Positions 9,498-53,008 of a stretch of DNA of 64,000 nt are shown here, piece by piece (the first letter of the stretch is position 1; each line of letters opens with the position of its first letter). The notes below the pieces were generated by a model. It saw only the letters and a list, made by a program, of their open reading frames with translations, did not search any database and was not told the origin of the DNA. The DNA is from Echinicola marina (GTDB lineage Bacteria > Bacteroidota > Bacteroidia > Cytophagales > Cyclobacteriaceae): contig NZ_CP080025.1 in the NCBI RefSeq assembly GCF_020463795.1, forward strand, positions 65,001 to 129,000, given 5' to 3'. The translations under genes were made by a program, and so were the position numbers.

Positions 9498-9585
9498 CAG
9501 AGAGGAAGGGATTCGAACCCTCGATACCCTTTAGGGGTATACACGCTTTCCAGGCGTGCTCCTTCGACCGCTCGGACACCTCTCT
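9498..9585 (-). tRNA. tRNA-Ser (anticodon GGA)
   Basis: An 88-nt class II tRNA. The 7-bp acceptor stem is AGAGAGG/CCUCUCU with discriminator G. The T arm contains GGUUCGAAUCC, and the long variable arm is built from UAUACCCC and GGGUAU. The anticodon stem CACGC/GCGUG holds the loop CUGGAAA, giving anticodon GGA (complement of 9549-9551), which reads UCC and UCU. No CCA is encoded. No other tRNA is seen in the window. Confidence 0.97.
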
Positions 9586-44872: not shown

Positions 44873-46063
44873 TTATTTTTTAATGGCCGCTCTTCGTGCC
44901 ATTTCTTTCTTTATCAATTCAAACTCTCGACTACTCTGCCCGGAAACACTGGTGTTTTCTGCAGCTCTTCTATATAAATAAGGCATCACCTTTTCCACTG
45001 GACCATAAGGCACATATTTGGCCACATTGTATCCTGCAAAAGCCAGATTATAAGAAATATTATCGCTCATACCGTAAAGCTGAGCGAAAAACACCCTATC
45101 ATCAGAAGGCTTGACCCCATATAAATTCATGAGCTCTGTCAAAATGATATTGCTCAATTCATTATGAGAACCGCTCACTAAATAAATACCCTGCTTATTC
45201 TCCATACAGAATTTCAATGCATCATTATAAGCATTGTCTGAATCCTCCTTGGTTTCATGAATAGGGCTTGGATATTTATTATCCTCTGCTCTCTCCCTTT
45301 CTTTCTCCATATAGGCTCCCCTTACAAGTTTAGCACCTATATAATACCCCTTCTCCTCTGACTCTGCATAAGCCTGCTTTAATAGTCCCAACATATCCTT
45401 TCGATACATCTGGTAAGTGTTATAGACTATGGCTTTTTCACGATTGTACTTTTCCATCGCCTCATAGGTCATATCATCTATCACATCCTGGAACCAACTT
45501 TCCTCCCCATCTATCATGATCTTTACATCATGTTCATGGGCTGCCTTACATAAACTGTCTACCCTGGCCCTTGTTTTTTCAAATGCCATAGCTTCTCTCT
45601 CAGAAAGTTGCTTTCCTTCCTGAACCTTAGTCATAATCTTGGAGGACCCTAAACCTGTTACCTTAAACACCGTGAAAGGTATTTCCTTAGCTCCTGCAGA
45701 CCTTTCTATGGTACTGAGGATTTCATCACGTGTAAAGTCATAACTTTTTTCTGTCCCTTTCCCCTCTACTGAGTAATCCAGAATAGTCCCTATTCCATAT
45801 CGCTCTAACTCCTTGATAGACTTTTTACAATCTTCAATGCTCTCTCCCCCACAAAAGTGGCCAAACATTGTTTTTTTCATGATCCCTTTTACCGGCAGTC
45901 TCAGTTTAAATGCTACATCTGCTAGGCTTGTCCCCAGCTTCACAGCCATATTACTGTCCATGACGGCAAATATCAGGTACATTTTTCTGAGCTCCACATC
46001 CGTCCTGGATGAAAAGGCTATTTCAGTATTTTCAAAAGAAATATTGGGCTTAGTATTCATCAT
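44873..46063 (-). CDS. Proline dehydrogenase
   Basis: FAD enzyme oxidising L-proline to pyrroline-5-carboxylate. The 396-residue chain is the single-domain form, without the P5C dehydrogenase part. Segments: [78 protein letters not shown], and [20 protein letters not shown] with [20 protein letters not shown] (FAD and substrate-binding Arg pair). It precedes lysS by 20 nt, so the two may share a transcript. Confidence 0.94.
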
Positions 46064-46077
46064 TTTGAATCAAGGTG

Positions 46078-46085
46078 CAAATATA
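46078..46085 (-). promoter_or_regulatory. Candidate -7 box for proline dehydrogenase
   Basis: Reads TATATTTG on the minus strand, a perfect TAnnTTTG, with the ATG 14 nt downstream. The -33 box is unclear. Confidence 0.45.
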
Positions 46086-46404
46086 TTAAAAAAACGTCTA
46101 TTGACTTTAATTTTATTCCCTATATATAAGATGCAAGAAACTTGCCATTCTAAGCTATAAATAATCTCATACAATAGCCTCATACATACCTTACACCTTA
46201 ACTGCCAATACTTTTAGAATTCCAATAAAGAAAATCCAAAAAACTCAAAACAGGATTTCAAAAAACACAATACCTAACCTTTAAACACAATAGATAATAC
46301 TGAAATAAACCAATGCAATTACCTTAAAATAATTGGCTTTTTTTAAAGTATTCACAATGCTAAGGAGGAAAAGTAGAATATTATAAAAAATTAATTCATG
46401 TTTT

Positions 46405-46436
46405 ATTGGTTATTTAAAATCAAGCCCTTACTTTTG
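46405..46436 (+). promoter_or_regulatory. Promoter of the aromatic amino acid operon
   Basis: ATTG (46405-46408), a 20-nt spacer and TACTTTTG (46429-46436) fit the Bacteroidota -33/-7 promoter, with a perfect -7 box. The leader-peptide ATG starts 5 nt after the box, so the transcript would begin at or next to that codon. Confidence 0.72.
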
Positions 46437-46441
46437 GGCCA

Positions 46442-46537
46442 ATGATTAAACAAGCAGCTACATATTTTATTTTCTTTTTCTTTTACTTTCGACCTCAAGG
46501 CCGAATCGGAGCTGCTTATTGTCTGGATAAAAAATAA
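46442..46537 (+). CDS. Phe/Tyr-rich attenuator leader peptide of the aromatic operon
   Basis: A 31-codon frame starting MIKQAATYFIFFFFYFRPQG and ending AAYCLDKK. Residues 8-16 contain six Phe and two Tyr in nine positions, the usual sign of a leader peptide that senses charged tRNA-Phe and tRNA-Tyr. It lies between the promoter and a terminator in front of DAHP synthase/chorismate mutase. No in-frame ATG, GTG or TTG follows the first codon, and there is no A-rich or Shine-Dalgarno site before it; with the promoter box 5 nt away it may be a leaderless start. The peptide itself probably has no function beyond being translated. Confidence 0.8.
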   Translation: MIKQAATYFIFFFFYFRPQGRIGAAYCLDKK

Positions 46538-46590
46538 AATTCATACATAAACCAAAAAGCCCGATTCGAAAGAGTCGGGCTTTTTTATTT
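46452..46590 (+). promoter_or_regulatory. Ribosome-mediated transcription attenuator
   Basis: Four segments form alternative pairs. Segment 1 AAGCAGCT (46452-46459) pairs with AGCTGCTT (46510-46517). CGAATCGG (46502-46509), next to it, is the exact complement of CCGATTCG (46561-46568), which is the left arm of the terminator. A ribosome halted on the Phe/Tyr codons (46463-46489) hides segment 1, frees 46502-46517 and lets the antiterminator form. A ribosome that reaches the stop codon (46535-46537) covers that segment and lets the terminator form. The logic matches enterobacterial trp and pheA attenuators; the mechanism here is inferred. Confidence 0.78.
46554..46590 (+). terminator. Attenuator terminator upstream of DAHP synthase
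   Basis: The stem AAAAAGCCCGATTC/GAGTCGGGCTTTTT (14 bp, one G-T) closes a GAAA tetraloop and runs into a T tract. It ends 11 nt before the DAHP synthase start codon, where a normal terminator would silence the operon, so it must be conditional. Confidence 0.93.
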
Positions 46591-46601
46591 CAATCAAACA
46601 A

Positions 46602-47705
46602 ATGAAAGATCACTTAAAAACGTCAGAATGGGGCTTAGGACTTAACGGTCATGTAATTATCGCGGGGCCTTGTAGTGCAGAAACTCCTGAGCAAGTTGAA
46701 AAAGTTTGCCTGGAAATGAAAAAAGAGAACATCATTCCTTCAATGTTCCGTGCTGGAATATGGAAGCCAAGAACCAGACCAGGAAGCTTCGAGGGAATCG
46801 GTGAAGATGGCCTTAAGTGGATGGAGATTGTTAGAAATCACCTTAACATCCCTATCACTACTGAAGTTGGTAACACTGCTCACGTTGAGTTAGCCCTTAA
46901 GCACAAAGTAGATGTACTTTGGATCGGTGCAAGAACTACCGTTAACCCTTTTGCTGTACAGGAAATTGCTGAAGCACTAAGAGGCACAGATATTCCAGTG
47001 ATGGTTAAAAACCCAATGAATCCGGACCTTCAGCTTTGGATCGGTGCTTTGGAAAGACTTCACGCAGTAGGCATCAACAAACTAGCTGCTATCCACAGAG
47101 GATTCAGCGATGCTTACGACAAGCGTTTCAGAAATAAGCCAAACTGGTCAATGCCAATCCACTTGAAAAGAGAATGGAAAGGCATGGAAGTGATCAATGA
47201 CCCTAGCCATATCGTAGGTAAAAGAGATGGTATCTTGGAAGTTTCCCAAAGAGCTATCAACTTCGGCCTGGACGGTTTGATGATCGAAACTCACCATGAT
47301 CCAGACAACGCATGGAGTGATGCCAAACAACAAGTTACTCCTGCCCAGTTGAAAGAAATCCTCTCTAAAATTGATTTCAAGAACACCTTGGATACACAGA
47401 ATCCAGATGAACAGCTTAACGACCTAAGAACTGCCGTTGACCACCTTGACGATCAATTATTGGATCTATTTGCAGAAAGATTCTCCGTAATCGATCAAAT
47501 CGGCGCACACAAAAGAGAACACAAGCTCACCGTATTTCAGTCTGACAGATGGAAAAACGTAATGGAGTCCAGAACTGAAAAAGGTGTTAAAAAAGGCATG
47601 AGTGAAAAATTCATGAAGGAATTGCTTTTTACTATTCATGAGGAATCTGTGAAAAGACAAGAAAAACAACTTAGAGAAGGTGACGCTGTAAAAAAAGAAG
47701 CGTAA
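46602..47705 (+). CDS. Bifunctional DAHP synthase / chorismate mutase (type II)
   Basis: First enzyme of the shikimate pathway fused to the branch-point enzyme. The N-terminal class I-beta DAHP synthase domain (1 to about 265) shows HVIIAGPCSAETPEQ, RAGIWKPRTRPGSFEG, VKNPMNPDLQLWIGALE and DPSHIVGKRDG. The C-terminal AroQ-type chorismate mutase (about 270-355) shows LRTAVDHLDDQLLDLFAERF, with QIGAHKREH bearing catalytic Lys/Arg residues. This order is common in Bacteroidota and usually implies feedback control by prephenate through the mutase domain. It is the first gene under the leader-peptide attenuator. Confidence 0.95.
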   Translation: MKDHLKTSEWGLGLNGHVIIAGPCSAETPEQVEKVCLEMKKENIIPSMFRAGIWKPRTRPGSFEGIGEDGLKWMEIVRNHLNIPITTEVGNTAHVELALKHKVDVLWIGARTTVNPFAVQEIAEALRGTDIPVMVKNPMNPDLQLWIGALERLHAVGINKLAAIHRGFSDAYDKRFRNKPNWSMPIHLKREWKGMEVINDPSHIVGKRDGILEVSQRAINFGLDGLMIETHHDPDNAWSDAKQQVTPAQLKEILSKIDFKNTLDTQNPDEQLNDLRTAVDHLDDQLLDLFAERFSVIDQIGAHKREHKLTVFQSDRWKNVMESRTEKGVKKGMSEKFMKELLFTIHEESVKRQEKQLREGDAVKKEA

Positions 47706-47735: not shown

Positions 47736-48773
47736 TTGGAATCAATAATTTTCTCGACTCAAATTGCTGCAGACCTAGAGCGGTACCTAAAAACAAAGAG
47801 CTTTTCCAAACTAGGCCTAATAGCTGATAGCAATACCTATCAAGCTTGTTATCCACTGATCCAGGAAATCCTCCCTGAGCATGAGCATTTCCAGTTCAAA
47901 GCAGGAGAAGTCAACAAGACTTTGACCACCTGCACTGAAATATGGCAATGGATGACTGATTGTGGGTTTGACAGAAAATCACTGATCATCAATTTAGGAG
48001 GTGGAGTAACTGGAGATATGGGTGGATTTTGTGCCAGCACCTATAAGCGTGGCGTAAAATTCATCAATATCCCCACCTCCCTTCTTTCTCAGGTGGATGC
48101 CAGTGTAGGCGGAAAACTTGGAGTGGACTTTAATGGTTTCAAAAACCATATCGGTGTATTCAATGAACCTGAAACTGTTATCATTTCAGACGTATTTCTG
48201 AAAACACTACCCGTACCTGAATTAAGGTCTGGTTATGCAGAAGTCATCAAGCACGGTTTGATCCAAAACGCCAATTATTTCAATAGCTTGAAGATTGACA
48301 ACTGGGAGAACCAAAGCTGGAAGGACATCATAGAAAAGTCCGTACAAATTAAGAAAGAAGTAGTCACCAAGGACCCAAAGGAAGAAGGCTTAAGAAAAAT
48401 CCTCAATTTCGGACATACCGTGGGACATGCAGTAGAGTCATTCTATCTGGATACAGAAAGACACCTTTTGCACGGAGAAGCCATTGCCATCGGTATGATT
48501 GCCGAAGCATATCTTTCCCATAAACACATCAGATTACCTAAGGAAGACTTGGACACCATTACCGAAACATTGCTTAAGGTTTTTGGCAAAGTGGAAATCC
48601 CCAATAAAGACCTTGACGCCATTGCGCAACTTTGCTTCCAGGACAAAAAGAATGATGGAAAAACCATCAACTGTTCCTTGCTAAATAAAATAGGTGAATG
48701 TGATTATAATATTGCAGTGAGCCTTGAGGACATCATCTCTTCCTTGAATTTTTACAATTCACAACACCCATGA
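47736..48773 (+). CDS. aroB: 3-dehydroquinate synthase
   Basis: NAD-dependent cyclisation of DAHP to 3-dehydroquinate. Typical segments are NLGGGVTGDMGGFCASTYKR (NAD site), PTSLLSQVDASVGGKLGVD, SGYAEVIKHGLI with a Zn ligand Glu, and ILNFGHTVGHAVE with Zn His; a second His region is LLHGEAIAIGM. The length of 345 is normal. The start is TTG; the next Met is near residue 70, inside the fold, so no better start exists. It follows the DAHP synthase gene by 30 nt and overlaps aroA by 4 nt. Confidence 0.95.
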   Translation: MESIIFSTQIAADLERYLKTKSFSKLGLIADSNTYQACYPLIQEILPEHEHFQFKAGEVNKTLTTCTEIWQWMTDCGFDRKSLIINLGGGVTGDMGGFCASTYKRGVKFINIPTSLLSQVDASVGGKLGVDFNGFKNHIGVFNEPETVIISDVFLKTLPVPELRSGYAEVIKHGLIQNANYFNSLKIDNWENQSWKDIIEKSVQIKKEVVTKDPKEEGLRKILNFGHTVGHAVESFYLDTERHLLHGEAIAIGMIAEAYLSHKHIRLPKEDLDTITETLLKVFGKVEIPNKDLDAIAQLCFQDKKNDGKTINCSLLNKIGECDYNIAVSLEDIISSLNFYNSQHP

Positions 48774-49987
48774 ACAAAATCACACTAAGCACCAAAGCCA
48801 GCTTTGGAGAAGTAAACATCCCTTTGCCATCTTCAAAAAGCGAAAGCAACCGGGTTCTGATTATTGACGCCTTGACTAAGGGAGGCAATCATATTTCCAA
48901 CCTAGCTGAAGCCAGAGACACTCAAACAATGATCCGATTATTGGAAGAGGATCCGGATATTCTGGATGTCTTGGATGCGGGGACTACCATGAGGTTCTTG
49001 ACGGCTTATGCTGCTCTTACGAATAGAAACAAAACTTTGACCGGTACTCCTAGGATGTGCGAGCGCCCCATAGGCATTTTGGTGGATGCATTGAGAAGCC
49101 TTGGAGCTGAAATAGAATACAAAGGCAAAGAGGGCTACCCTCCAATGGAAACCAAAGGCTTCTCCAAACAGTTGACTAATCACATCAAAATCAGAGGAGA
49201 TGTAAGTAGCCAATACATATCTGCACTGGTCATGAACGCTCCGCTACTGCCTGATGGTTTAACTTTAGAGTTAACAGGGAAAATAGGGTCCAGGACATAT
49301 ATAGAAATGACCCTGAAATTGATGGAGCAATTTGGCATCCAATATAGTTTTGAAGAAAACATTATAAAAGTCGCTCATCAAGATTACCACAACACTAATT
49401 TTGCTGTAGAAAGCGATTGGTCAGGAGCAAGTTATTGGTTCAGTCTCTTGGCTTGTGCAGATGAGGGGCAGTTCTTCCTTAAAGGGCTTAAAAAAGACAG
49501 TTTACAAGGAGACTCAAAGATAGTGGAGATCATGGATCACTTAGGGATAAACAGTGAATTTAACGAAGAGGGCATACAATTGACCAAGAAAGCAGTATGC
49601 GGCTTGGAAAGTTTTGATTTCACCCATTGTCCTGACTTAGCTCAAACTGTGGCTGTAACCTGCGCATTAATTGGACAGACAAGTAAATTCACCGGCTTGG
49701 AAAGCCTAAGAATCAAGGAAACAGACCGTATTTTCGCTCTACAACAGGAATTGGCTAAATTCAACGCCAAATTGGTAGAAGGAGAAAATGAGGTATTCAC
49801 ACTTATACCTTCCACTGGCATTCCTGCTGAAGTCAACATCAGCACCTACGATGACCATCGCATGGCCATGGCCTTTATGCCTTTGGCTACTAAAACCAAG
49901 GTCTCCTTCGATGACATGGAAGTAGTCAACAAATCCTACCCGAGCTTTTGGAAACATTGCCAATTGGCCGGACTGGAAACCATATAA
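48770..49987 (+). CDS. aroA: 3-phosphoshikimate 1-carboxyvinyltransferase (EPSP synthase)
   Basis: Transfers enolpyruvyl from PEP to shikimate-3-phosphate. Family motifs: PLPSSKSESNRVLIIDALTK near the start, LDAGTTMRFLTAYAAL near 66, GTPRMCERPIG, GDVSSQYISALVM, LRIKETDRIFALQQEL and TYDDHRMAMAFMPLA. The 405-residue length is slightly below the E. coli enzyme, as in other Bacteroidota. Ala or Gly positions that govern glyphosate response are not judged here. The ATGA overlap with aroB shows translational coupling. Confidence 0.95.
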   Translation: MNKITLSTKASFGEVNIPLPSSKSESNRVLIIDALTKGGNHISNLAEARDTQTMIRLLEEDPDILDVLDAGTTMRFLTAYAALTNRNKTLTGTPRMCERPIGILVDALRSLGAEIEYKGKEGYPPMETKGFSKQLTNHIKIRGDVSSQYISALVMNAPLLPDGLTLELTGKIGSRTYIEMTLKLMEQFGIQYSFEENIIKVAHQDYHNTNFAVESDWSGASYWFSLLACADEGQFFLKGLKKDSLQGDSKIVEIMDHLGINSEFNEEGIQLTKKAVCGLESFDFTHCPDLAQTVAVTCALIGQTSKFTGLESLRIKETDRIFALQQELAKFNAKLVEGENEVFTLIPSTGIPAEVNISTYDDHRMAMAFMPLATKTKVSFDDMEVVNKSYPSFWKHCQLAGLETI

Positions 49988-49996
49988 AATTGATTG

Positions 49997-50030
49997 CTGC
50001 CTGACCTTAAAAAGTCAGGCAGTTTTCTTT
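49997..50030 (+). terminator. Terminator after aroA
   Basis: A perfect 9-bp stem CTGCCTGAC/GTCAGGCAG with an 8-nt loop, followed by TTTTCTTT. It splits the aromatic cluster into two transcription units. Confidence 0.9.
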
Positions 50031-50066
50031 CATGTCATTTTTTATGGAATAAAGGCATCGATTGTT

Positions 50067-50098
50067 TTTGACTTTCTGGCATCCTTCATCTAATTTCA
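50067..50098 (+). promoter_or_regulatory. Promoter of the pheA-aminotransferase-tyrA unit
   Basis: TTTG (50067-50070), a 20-nt spacer and TAATTTCA (50091-50098; six of eight consensus positions) lie after the aroA terminator and 48 nt before pheA. The spacing is ideal, the -7 box only partial. No Phe/Tyr-rich leader frame or second terminator is seen here. Confidence 0.5.
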
Positions 50099-50146
50099 CA
50101 ACAAAAAAATCAGCGGTTCACCGCCCAATCCTCAACAACTACTAAA

Positions 50147-50986
50147 TTGAAAGCAACCCAAGAAAAAGTAGCCATACAAGGTATCAAAGGTTCATACCAT
50201 TATCAGGTGGCCCGTACTACTTTTGGACCAGAGGCAGAAATACTGGAATGCCTGACCTTCACGGAACTGGTCAGGAAAATCACCACTGAGGAAGCCACCA
50301 TCGGTGTATTAGCATTGGAAAACTCCATCGCAGGAGCCATCTTGCCGAATTATGACCTTATGGATAGAAATAACCTCAGAATAACTGGTGAATTCTATCT
50401 TCCCATCTCCCATCAACTTATGGCATGGCCGGGACAGAGCATCCAAGAAATCCAAGAGGTTCGCTCCCATCCAATGGCCCTATTACAGTGTAAAGCTTTT
50501 TTTGAAGAGTACCCTCATATCCGTTTGGTAGAAGATTTGGATACTGCATCAGTAGCGAAGACCATCCATGAAGAACAGCTAAAAGGAGTAGCGGCTATTG
50601 CCGGTAAATCAGCTGCTGAATTTTATAAGTTGGACATTTTGGCCTCTGACATTCAAACCATCAAAAACAATATTACCCGTTTTTGCATAGTCACCAAGGA
50701 AAAGGAACAAGTTCCAGCAGAAGGATTTGACAAAGTTTCTCTTAAATTAGTCATTCAAAATGAAAAGGGGAGCTTGGCCAAAGTACTCAACATCATGAGT
50801 AAAAACAATCTTGACCTTTCAAAAATCCAATCCCTGCCAGTTATTGATAAACCATGGCATTATGCCTTCTTCATAGATTTAATTTTTGAGAAACTTTCCG
50901 ATTATCAAACGGCCATGCAGCAAATCCAAGATGCAGGCCATCAGATCAAAATCATGGGAGAGTACAAAAACACCAAAATTGCCTAA
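50147..50986 (+). CDS. pheA: Prephenate dehydratase
   Basis: Converts prephenate to phenylpyruvate in phenylalanine synthesis. The 279-residue chain has the PDT domain (1 to about 185) with AIQGIKGSYHYQVAR, IGVLALENSIAGAI (the ENS motif) and IQTIKNNITRFCIV (the TRF motif, catalytic Thr). A C-terminal ACT domain (about 200-275, KLVIQNEKGSLAKVLNIMS) binds Phe as feedback inhibitor. The start is TTG, with KATQEKVAIQG directly after; there is no nearer ATG. No chorismate mutase domain is fused, because that activity is on the DAHP synthase. Confidence 0.95.
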   Translation: MKATQEKVAIQGIKGSYHYQVARTTFGPEAEILECLTFTELVRKITTEEATIGVLALENSIAGAILPNYDLMDRNNLRITGEFYLPISHQLMAWPGQSIQEIQEVRSHPMALLQCKAFFEEYPHIRLVEDLDTASVAKTIHEEQLKGVAAIAGKSAAEFYKLDILASDIQTIKNNITRFCIVTKEKEQVPAEGFDKVSLKLVIQNEKGSLAKVLNIMSKNNLDLSKIQSLPVIDKPWHYAFFIDLIFEKLSDYQTAMQQIQDAGHQIKIMGEYKNTKIA

Positions 50987-50988
50987 AC

Positions 50989-52149
50989 ATGATCCAAGCA
51001 GCCAATCGCCTGAACAAGGTCAAGGAATACTATTTTTCCAAAAAATTAAGAGAAGTGGCCAGGTTAAAATCAGAAGGTCATGACATTATCAATATGGGAA
51101 TAGGAAGTCCTGACCTTCCTCCACATCCTTCAGTAATAGAAGCATTAAATAACACCAGTAAGCTGGACAACTCCCATGGCTACCAAAGCTATCAGGGGAT
51201 TCCGGCACTAAGGGAAGCCATTGCTTCATTCTATGAAAAACATTATGGTGTCAATCTGGACCCGGCTCATGAAATTCTACCCATGATGGGATCCAAGGAA
51301 GCCATCATGCACATTTCCATGGCTTACTTGAATCCCGGTGACAAGGTGCTTATCCCAAACCCAGGCTACCCTACCTATACTTCTGTAACAGAATTGGTGG
51401 GAGCTGAAGCTATCTATTATGATCTTAAGGGAGAACACCAATGGCTGCCAGATATGGATCAGCTAGAGGAATTCGCTAGCCAAGGAATTAAATTGATGTG
51501 GATCAATTACCCCCATATGCCTACTGGTGCAAACGCCAATAAAACTACACTAAAACAGTTGGTGGATTTTGCTATAAAACACCAAATCCTATTGGTTAAC
51601 GACAATCCATACAGCTTTATATTAACGGAGGAACACCTCAGTATTTTAAGCATTGAGGGAGCAAAGGAAATCGCTTTGGAATTAAACTCATTGAGCAAAA
51701 CGTATAATATGCCGGGTTGGAGAGTAGGAATGCTCTGTGGAGACAGCCATTTTGTAAAAGAAGTCTTAAAGGTGAAAAGCAATATGGACTCAGGTATGTT
51801 CCTGGGCATCCAACAAGGGGCCATTGCCGCATTAAGCCTAGACAACTCCTGGTTTGAACAGATGAACAACATCTACCAAAAAAGAAGGGAATTGATATGG
51901 AAACTAGCAGAAAGAATTGGTGCTGTATGTGACAAAAAAAGCTCTGGTATGTTTGTATGGGCAAAGCTTGCAGATAGAACAGACCCACACTCCTTGGTTG
52001 ACAAACTATTGTATGAAAACCAAATATTCATTACACCCGGAGATATCTTTGGCAGCAATGGCAATGGATATATCAGGTTTTCACTTTGCGTGCCGGAAGA
52101 TATTATTCAAAAAGCATTCGAGAGAATAAATAGCGCTTGGACCAAATAA
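50989..52149 (+). CDS. Class I/II aminotransferase (probable aromatic or aspartate type)
   Basis: A 386-residue PLP enzyme. INMGIGSPDLPPHPSVI and HGYQSYQGIPALREAIASFY open the fold. MMGSKEAIMHI supplies the phosphate contacts, NDNPYSFI the cofactor Asp-Tyr pair, and LNSLSKTYNMPGWRVGML the Schiff-base Lys. YIRFSLCVPE gives the substrate Arg. Its place between pheA and tyrA, with a 2-nt gap to pheA, points to transamination of phenylpyruvate and hydroxyphenylpyruvate, the last step to Phe and Tyr. LL-diaminopimelate or other substrates cannot be excluded from sequence alone. Confidence 0.9.
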   Translation: MIQAANRLNKVKEYYFSKKLREVARLKSEGHDIINMGIGSPDLPPHPSVIEALNNTSKLDNSHGYQSYQGIPALREAIASFYEKHYGVNLDPAHEILPMMGSKEAIMHISMAYLNPGDKVLIPNPGYPTYTSVTELVGAEAIYYDLKGEHQWLPDMDQLEEFASQGIKLMWINYPHMPTGANANKTTLKQLVDFAIKHQILLVNDNPYSFILTEEHLSILSIEGAKEIALELNSLSKTYNMPGWRVGMLCGDSHFVKEVLKVKSNMDSGMFLGIQQGAIAALSLDNSWFEQMNNIYQKRRELIWKLAERIGAVCDKKSSGMFVWAKLADRTDPHSLVDKLLYENQIFITPGDIFGSNGNGYIRFSLCVPEDIIQKAFERINSAWTK

Positions 52150-52159
52150 ACTAATCATC

Positions 52160-53008
52160 ATGAGGAAAATACACATAATAGGCCTTGGCCTTTTGGGCGG
52201 CTCCTTTTCATTGGGATTAAGAGCAGCGCTACCTAACCTGACTATTACGGGTATGGACCATAATCAAACTCACCTAGATCAAGCCCTTAGTTTAGGGATT
52301 ATTGATGAAGCAAAAGCAACTCCTGACCGGGACACTGATATTGTGGTAGTGGCCATACCGGTACATACAATCATTCCTGTTCTAGAAGATTTATTGGACA
52401 AGGTCAGTGAACAAACCCTCATCATGGACTTTGGATCCACAAAGGAAAATATCTGTGCCAGTCTCGAGGATCACCCTAAAAGGAAAAACTTTCTTGCAGC
52501 TCACCCAATAGCAGGTACAGAATACTCAGGCCCAAGCGCTGCTTTTCCAGGCTTGCTACAAGACAAAATCATGATCCTTTGCGAACTGGAGAAAACAGAC
52601 CTGCACCTTAAGTCCAAAGCCTATACAGCATTTGAAGCCCTCAACATGAAGATTAGGTTCATGGAACCACATGAACATGACAATCAACTGGCATTTGTTT
52701 CCCACCTTTCCCATATCAGCTCTTTTATGCTCGGCAAAACCGTGCTTGATAAAATGCAAGATGATAAAAACATCCTTGATATGGCTGGAAGTGGCTTTGC
52801 CTCCACGGTAAGGCTAGCAAAAAGCTCTCCTGACATGTGGGCCCCCATACTTCAGGAAAATAAAGACAATGTGCTAGAAGCTCTCAATGGCTATATCAGA
52901 AACCTAACAGAATTCAGGGATCATTTGGCTTATGAACAATTTGAAGACCTGCGTAAAATAATGAAAAAGACCAATCAGATTGGGGAAATTTTAGATCTGA
53001 AAAGTTAG
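52160..53008 (+). CDS. tyrA: Prephenate dehydrogenase
   Basis: NAD-dependent oxidative decarboxylation of prephenate to hydroxyphenylpyruvate. The 282-residue chain opens with the Rossmann site IHIIGLGLLGGSFSLGLRA. It then shows IMDFGSTKENIC, FLAAHPIAGTEYSGPSAAFP with the catalytic His, and LAFVSHLSHISSFML. No ACT domain is fused, so tyrosine feedback is probably weak or elsewhere. It is last in the pheA unit and its final 4 nt overlap the end of the convergent binding-protein gene. Confidence 0.95.
   Translation: MRKIHIIGLGLLGGSFSLGLRAALPNLTITGMDHNQTHLDQALSLGIIDEAKATPDRDTDIVVVAIPVHTIIPVLEDLLDKVSEQTLIMDFGSTKENICASLEDHPKRKNFLAAHPIAGTEYSGPSAAFPGLLQDKIMILCELEKTDLHLKSKAYTAFEALNMKIRFMEPHEHDNQLAFVSHLSHISSFMLGKTVLDKMQDDKNILDMAGSGFASTVRLAKSSPDMWAPILQENKDNVLEALNGYIRNLTEFRDHLAYEQFEDLRKIMKKTNQIGEILDLKS

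Follow-up and report, generated by a model that had tools for sequence, protein, structure and literature searches.

How transcription of the aromatic amino acid operon of Echinicola marina might be adjusted to the supply of phenylalanine and tyrosine is the question raised by the intergenic region that precedes it (46064–46601 of the 64-kb stretch of DNA analysed here, hereafter the window). The source genome (Echinicola, Cyclobacteriaceae, Bacteroidota) is a single contig of 5.69 Mb, and a record search gave Echinicola shivajiensis and E. salinicaeni, both at 99%, as the best named matches of its DAHP synthase (DAHPS). The region lies between the plus-strand operon and a divergent proline dehydrogenase gene (44873–46063, minus strand), which shares 46064–46441 with it and stands opposite in 62 of 80 relatives. 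Among the 80 named relatives, aroB follows DAHPS on the same strand in 80, aroA in 79, pheA and an aminotransferase gene in 73 each and tyrA in 47, the counts of the later genes being limited by the extent of the sequences (at least 4500 nt downstream in 74 loci). This gene content matches a sensing of Phe and Tyr. A sequence-only reading had placed a Phe/Tyr leader-peptide attenuator at 46405–46601, and the conserved leader frame, the covarying helices, the conserved terminator and the aromatic operon downstream support that reading. We therefore regard a ribosome-mediated transcription attenuator, sensing charged tRNA-Phe and tRNA-Tyr before the operon, as highly probable. The proposed interval stands for the leader and the terminator, while 46405–46441 corresponds to the promoter. 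The features are collected in Table 1.

Table 1. Features of the leader region and operon of Echinicola marina, in positions of the window
Feature	Position	Strand	Observation
−33 box, ATTG (TTTG in most relatives)	46405–46408	+	conservation at −35 to −32 relative to the leader ATG; one mismatch here
−7 box, TACTTTTG (TAnnTTTG)	46429–46436	+	box present in 84 of 84 distinct loci
Predicted transcription start, 1-nt 5′UTR	46441	+	from the position of the box, −12 to −5
Leader peptide frame, MIKQAATYFIFFFFYFRPQGRIGAAYCLDKK, 31 codons	46442–46537	+	ATG 46442–46444, stop 46535–46537; conserved in relatives
P1, 5′ strand, AAGCAGCT	46452–46459	+	covariation, helix-swap test
Sensing codons 8–16, YFIFFFFYF	46463–46489	+	F/Y retained through synonymous and F–Y exchange in relatives
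P2 hairpin, TTCG/CGAA core	46488–46505	+	picked unaided by RNAalifold; core near-invariant, one compensatory row
Antiterminator, 5′ strand (segment 2), CGAATCGG	46502–46509	+	pairs in 99.7% of cells; re-lettered together with its partner in genus g6
P1, 3′ strand, AGCTGCTT	46510–46517	+	covariation, helix-swap test
Intrinsic terminator with a 14-bp stem, a GAAA loop and a T-rich tail	46554–46590	+	pairing in 95.3% of cells; both sides changed at 4 of the 14 pairs
Antiterminator, 3′ strand, within left arm and loop of the terminator, CCGATTCG	46561–46568	+	99.7% pairing; g6 re-lettering
DAHP synthase/chorismate mutase, first gene	46602–47705	+	PF00793 and PF01817
Remainder of operon: aroB, aroA, pheA, aminotransferase, tyrA	47736–53008	+	gene order kept in relatives

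The short frame, with six Phe and two Tyr in residues 8–16, is present as the sequence-only reading described it, and it is the sole ATG frame of 10–50 codons with seven F/Y in nine residues on either strand of the window; 2000 shuffles of the intergenic region reached seven F/Y in 6 cases and eight in none. Orthologous DAHPS genes were found in 11 same-genus genomes and 80 named records. Out of these 91 loci 87 were examined, since L003, L004, L007 and L009 are minus-strand copies with the same contig coordinates as L032–L035, which were used. Removal of three duplicates left 84 distinct sequences (alignment A1), and codon counts cover 81 frames, leaving aside L008 and L093 for their indels and L102 for its shifted frame. 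Conservation is the deciding evidence. An F/Y-rich frame (at least five F/Y per ten residues) precedes DAHPS in all 87 loci, as do segment 2 and, after it, a T run; the distance from the leader ATG to segment 2 is 61 nt in 85 of them, 60 in L008 and 58 in L093. Codons 9, 14, 15 and 16 read F, F, Y and F in 81 of 81 frames, and either F or Y stands at codons 12 and 13 throughout. Phe occupies codon 11 in 79 frames, the other two having Y and S there, and 79 frames have Y or F at codon 8. Synonymous variation occurs at codons 11, 12, 13 and 15; codons 9 and 14 are TTT throughout and codon 16 is TTT in 80 frames. What characterizes attenuators of the trp/phe/his type, a short frame with a run of operon-product codons under coding selection, was found at 87 of 87 loci. 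The segment-2 codons CGA, ATC and GGA are identical to the letter in 79, 81 and 77 of the 81 frames, behaving as an RNA element would be expected to. Codons 26–28 (Tyr Cys Leu, TATTGYCT, 46517–46525), just 3′ of P1, are likewise conserved and used by none of the helices; a polymerase pause site or a role of the peptide are guesses. In Nitritalea (L102, 4831–4980) an intact YFFYF is followed by LLLLS, and the Phe/Tyr-coding letters TTTTACTTTTACTTTCG are retained out of frame. A contig labelled as a Spirosoma fluviale MAG (L106) carries an Algoriphagus-like leader, and its label or binning is possibly wrong.

The promoter elements indicate where this leader RNA might begin. A T stands at −35 from the leader ATG in 82 of 82 ungapped alignment rows, and the 3′ end of the TAnnTTT(G/A) box lies 4 nt upstream of the ATG in 73 of the 84 distinct loci and 5 nt upstream in the other 11. 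In mapped promoters of Flavobacterium psychrophilum the TAnnTTTG box spans −12 to −5, and leaderless mRNAs make up 5.5% of those mapped, according to the excerpted text of that study (PMC9723704). A box at the same position would set +1 at the A of the leader ATG, or one base earlier in Echinicola marina, so that a 5′UTR of 0–1 nt is predicted in 84 of 84 distinct DAHPS loci. Since the boxes put the predicted start at the leader ATG, the DAHPS leader transcripts of Echinicola and its relatives are probably leaderless.

Both 8-bp helices of the sequence-only reading, the one across the Phe/Tyr codons (AAGCAGCT/AGCTGCTT, here P1) and the competing one (CGAATCGG/CCGATTCG), are exact in the sequence. 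P1 by itself leaves CGAATCGG inside its loop; half of segment 2 is hidden by a further hairpin that had been overlooked, P2, in which TTCG (46488–46491) pairs with CGAA (46502–46505). The terminator had also been correctly described, with a GAAA loop (46568–46571) and a T tract that reaches 46590 and leaves 11 nt to the DAHPS ATG at 46602; its stem (46554–46567 with 46572–46585) comprises 14 pairs, one of them G-U. A simple terminator scan of 46064–46650 listed no plus-strand terminator, probably because the stem absorbs five of the T's as A-U pairs. Alignment of the region upstream of DAHPS in relatives, which had been suggested as a check, showed a conserved F/Y run together with covariation of the outer helix and the terminator.

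For P1 (in its majority register), P2 and the terminator taken as one structure, 87.8% of cells are paired against 84.5% in shuffles, 10 of 27 pairs are changed on both sides against 5.5, and 66 cells are changed on both sides against 35.3 (0 of 500 shuffles in each case), while the number of further pair types was reached by 7 of 500. Such a shuffle test may be inflated by the relatedness of the sequences; every slid version of the structure scored below the real one, and strand swaps between sequences agree with it. Duplexes formed by a sequence's own strands were more stable than swapped ones for P1 (−9.68 versus −8.84) and for the terminator (−19.18 versus −18.41; 0 of 500 in both cases). 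For P2 the outcome was mixed, as the duplex energy was better than in swapped pairs (0 of 500), unlike the helix score (339 of 500); its four-pair core is near-invariant, with a single compensatory row, and its inner three pairs occur in roughly half of the rows. RNAalifold picked the P2 core and the terminator unaided and did not predict P1. In the register of Echinicola marina itself the changed pairs of P1 were no more numerous than expected from shuffles (464 of 500 reached their number), because P1 slides by a codon between genera. An intrinsic terminator between leader and first gene is indicated by the sequence, by covariation, by RNAalifold and by folding.

Among close relatives, as aligned in A1, the antiterminator hardly varies and shows no covariation. 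A covariance model (R1) searched over 390 genomes of the order gave 101 matches at E ≤ 0.001, a figure that does not equal 101 attenuators; only 46, all Cyclobacteriaceae, exceeded 140 bits, and the next best scored 77.7. Inspection of 20 places below 80 bits, with gene homologies confirmed, revealed nine F/Y leaders before DAHPS, two before pheA and two Tyr/His leaders before phenylalanine hydroxylase; L149, L150, L155, L156, L157, L158 and L161 were rejected as leaders, as they look like unrelated terminators. In nine diverged DAHPS leaders (genera g20 and g6, same family) the 8 pairs are kept in eight, G-U allowed, and 6 pairs in L151. In L146, L148 and L152 CGAATCGG/CCGATTCG is replaced by GTGAACCG/CGGTTCAC (in L147 by GTGAGCCG), with both strands changed. 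As judged from these sequences, the complementarity of the antiterminator outlasts its re-lettering through compensatory change in the more distant genus g6, whose leader frames end before the antiterminator segment. Its mutual exclusion with the terminator is indicated by the pairing, by folding simulation and by this compensatory change.

The predicted fold of the leader RNA (46442–46590) has −37.3 kcal/mol, shuffled sequences averaging −22.7 (z −4.23, 0 of 200 shuffles), and the full-length RNA folds to the terminator in 84 of 84 sequences. A ribosome whose footprint was taken to be −13 to +15 relative to the P site was modelled on RNA grown to 46572. With the A site at codons 2–17 the antiterminator probability in the Echinicola marina RNA was near 1, at codons 21–28 the helix did not form, and at codons 29–32 it formed again; over the 84 sequences, a block at codon 9, 12 or 15 gave the antiterminator in 84 and a block at codon 22 or 25 in none. 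A stall at 46463–46489 thus frees the antiterminator in simulation, as the sequence-only reading supposed, but this effect is not specific, as any codon from 2 to 17 suffices, and P2 shares in the hiding. It is the codon content, and not the model, that singles out codons 8–16. The claim that completed translation to 46537 covers segment 2 failed, since with this footprint the segment is covered with the A site at codons 21–28 and is free again at the stop codon. The minimum-energy fold of the free RNA contains P1 and P2 at 3′ ends from 46520 to 46566, the antiterminator from 46568 to 46576, and P1, P2 and the terminator at 46580 and 46584. At equilibrium with the 3′ end at 46572, the antiterminator reached 0.99 without a ribosome and 0.95 with a ribosome at the stop codon, and at the equivalent position it was preferred in 81 of 84 free RNAs, though P1 and P2 exist. 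As equilibrium favours the antiterminator, termination in the fed state would need P1 and P2 to form first, or a ribosome that hinders pairing around it; in the model, this reliance on the order of folding is the least secure step.

These elements suggest the following course of events. RNA polymerase would start at the leader AUG or one base earlier, and a ribosome would initiate on this near-terminal AUG. Under a shortage of Phe or Tyr, the ribosome would stall within codons 8–16 and block P1 and/or P2; CGAATCGG could then pair with 46561–46568, as comparison and folding suggest, so that the left arm of the terminator would be occupied and the polymerase would enter the operon. P1 adjoins the antiterminator, and the two could stack as a pseudoknot. 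When Phe and Tyr are plentiful, the ribosome would pass on and cover CGAATCGG as the left arm of the terminator emerges, P1 and P2 would re-form behind it, and the terminator would form and end transcription near 46590. In that state the order of folding and a ribosome between the two strands would have to block the antiterminator.

Conservation of the peptide itself invites another explanation. A nascent chain can arrest its own ribosome, as in TnaC, and the leader peptide might sense free Phe or Tyr in this manner instead of stalling for want of charged tRNA. Residues F9, F14, Y15 and F16 as well as R21, I22 and G23 are invariant, and Tyr26-Cys27-Leu28 is conserved with no helix assigned to these codons, all of which would suit an arrest peptide. 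F and Y interchange, however, and the flanking residues differ widely between genera; R-I-G is fixed in its letters, like the antiterminator, the g6 leaders stop before R-I-G, and the pheA leaders of relatives have only the F/Y run in common, so that we consider arrest by the nascent chain very unlikely.

The terminator might instead be a fixed, unregulated damper, or serve antisense or upstream transcripts, with the short frame being incidental. Terminators sit near many genes, and attenuator regulation is a prediction here; but in all 87 loci the frame has been conserved along with its spacing, the promoter and three helices, and the antiterminator tracks the changes of the terminator in g6, which leaves this explanation with hardly any credit. 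A different matter is a possible additional role in trans of the terminated RNA or of the leader peptide, by analogy with rnTrpL and peTrpL of Sinorhizobium meliloti, for which trans action is described in the part of the source consulted (PMC7298713). A leaderless RNA of roughly 150 nt with a conserved peptide end is predicted here and would lend itself to such a role, although the signs of action in cis are enough to explain the conservation, and we hold the additional function to be improbable. The tRNA-sensing attenuator in cis remains our preferred reading.

Leaders of a similar kind appeared well beyond the DAHPS operons of Cyclobacteriaceae. In a search of the phylum 79 of 296 genomes matched at 1e-60, and 39 regions upstream of DAHPS-type genes were chosen. 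A pheA homologue begins within 24 of them, L211 being a truncated 25th case. A short F/Y-rich frame and a terminator precede pheA in 20 of these 24 regions (within L193–L230), from eight Bacteroidota families; in L201, L223, L228 and L231 no F/Y leader with a terminator was found. As 18 of the 20 lack a −7 box directly before the ATG, the pheA leaders are not evidently leaderless. Shuffle tests, which assess pairing alone since the loci had been picked for leader and terminator, supported, for the 20 pheA leaders as a set, the antiterminator, in which the leader end is complementary to the left arm of the terminator (Fisher p 8e-15, with 14 leaders individually at p ≤ 0.05), and P1 (Fisher p 4e-6, with 5 individually at p ≤ 0.05); in nine phenylalanine hydroxylase leaders they were not significant (p 0.21 and 0.25, respectively).

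Phenylalanine hydroxylase converts Phe to Tyr, and Tyr-rich leaders precede its gene in 8 of 30 Cyclobacteriaceae loci, in Echinicola marina and in 1 of 10 further regions (G006, same genus). The eight (L163, L168, L170, L176, L182, L183, L187 and L190) have several Tyr codons each, YYYYYYY at most, in a short frame and are followed by a terminator. The Echinicola marina leader MFENQAVKYYSHYYHFFSSWD, rich in Tyr, His and Phe and the same in G006, begins at L192:3515 (G000:C1 near 3027014), between a second DAHP synthase gene and phenylalanine hydroxylase, is accompanied by a terminator of 11 bp and, 6 nt upstream, by a −7 box, and is a probable second attenuator of this genome. The g6 hydroxylase leaders L159 and L160 mix His and Tyr (HSYHYHYYY in L159). 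A Trp-leader pattern run over the Echinicola marina genome was uninformative (109 matches against 32 in the reversed control). Overall, we incline slightly towards the view that aromatic leader-peptide attenuators are widespread in Bacteroidota, F/Y leaders serving pheA- and DAHPS-first operons and Tyr(/His) leaders phenylalanine hydroxylase, with the DAHPS leaders of Cyclobacteriaceae being leaderless.

Leader-peptide attenuation in enterobacteria is textbook knowledge, and the Phe and trp attenuators (RF01859, RF00513) likewise combine a short product-rich frame, competing helices and a terminator before the first gene. The Echinicola leader differs in having both Phe and Tyr codons, in carrying segment 2 inside the frame and in being predicted leaderless. 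It scored 25.5 bits with RF01859 (Phe_leader; gathering 55) and 16.5 with RF00513 (gathering 41), far below both thresholds. At gathering score Rfam matched nothing in the leader, T-box and other cis-regulators included, the sole match in the whole window being a tRNA (9498–9585). In e-value mode 46300–46700 gave 43 matches, several of them AT-rich small RNAs on both strands (RsaJ, BTnc231, Thr_leader); none reached gathering score and they were taken as chance.

Within the phylum, the excerpted text of a transcriptome study on Flavobacteriaceae reports strong clues to leader-peptide attenuation upstream of amino acid operons, a mechanism proposed there for these operons, and describes the 5′ elements of pheA and of hisG as conserved (PMC9723704). 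The structured pheA element of F. psychrophilum and other Flavobacteriaceae has phylum and pathway in common with the Echinicola leader; compared by description only, it sits before pheA, whereas that of Cyclobacteriaceae sits before DAHP synthase (PMC9723704). Leader-peptide-like frames are also mentioned in Bacteroides, in the portion of that source consulted (PMC7366714). Among leaderless examples, as far as the consulted portions go, the trpL attenuator RNA of S. meliloti likewise begins at the ATG of its leader frame, but it is from an alphaproteobacterium, concerns Trp and is leaderless from data, whereas the Echinicola leader is so by promoter-box prediction (PMC7298713); mycobacterial Cys-rich upstream frames are likewise small, leaderless and proposed attenuators, but concern cysteine in Actinobacteria and a mechanism that their authors call speculative (PMC4633059). 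Our literature search, whose coverage excludes most subscription journals, returned no title or abstract on this DAHPS leader or a phenylalanine hydroxylase leader peptide. The earlier remark that no description was known should be softened, given the flavobacterial attenuation clues and pheA element (PMC9723704). Attenuation being long known and related Bacteroidota clues being published, the variant appears new and the kind known.

The leader offers a strongly conserved case of attenuation in a phylum with different promoters and a different initiation of translation. It proposes a mode of control for the DAHPS operon of Cyclobacteriaceae and points to small frames that are easily missed in annotation. 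To our knowledge, Bacteroidota do not use Shine-Dalgarno signals. If the wider view is true, in the DAHPS leaders of Cyclobacteriaceae the ribosome would load onto a 5′-terminal AUG as it leaves the polymerase, and attenuation would proceed without a ribosome-binding site. If leaderless, this leader would show how transcription and translation are timed without a 5′UTR, and might serve as a clean reporter for their coupling in Bacteroidota.
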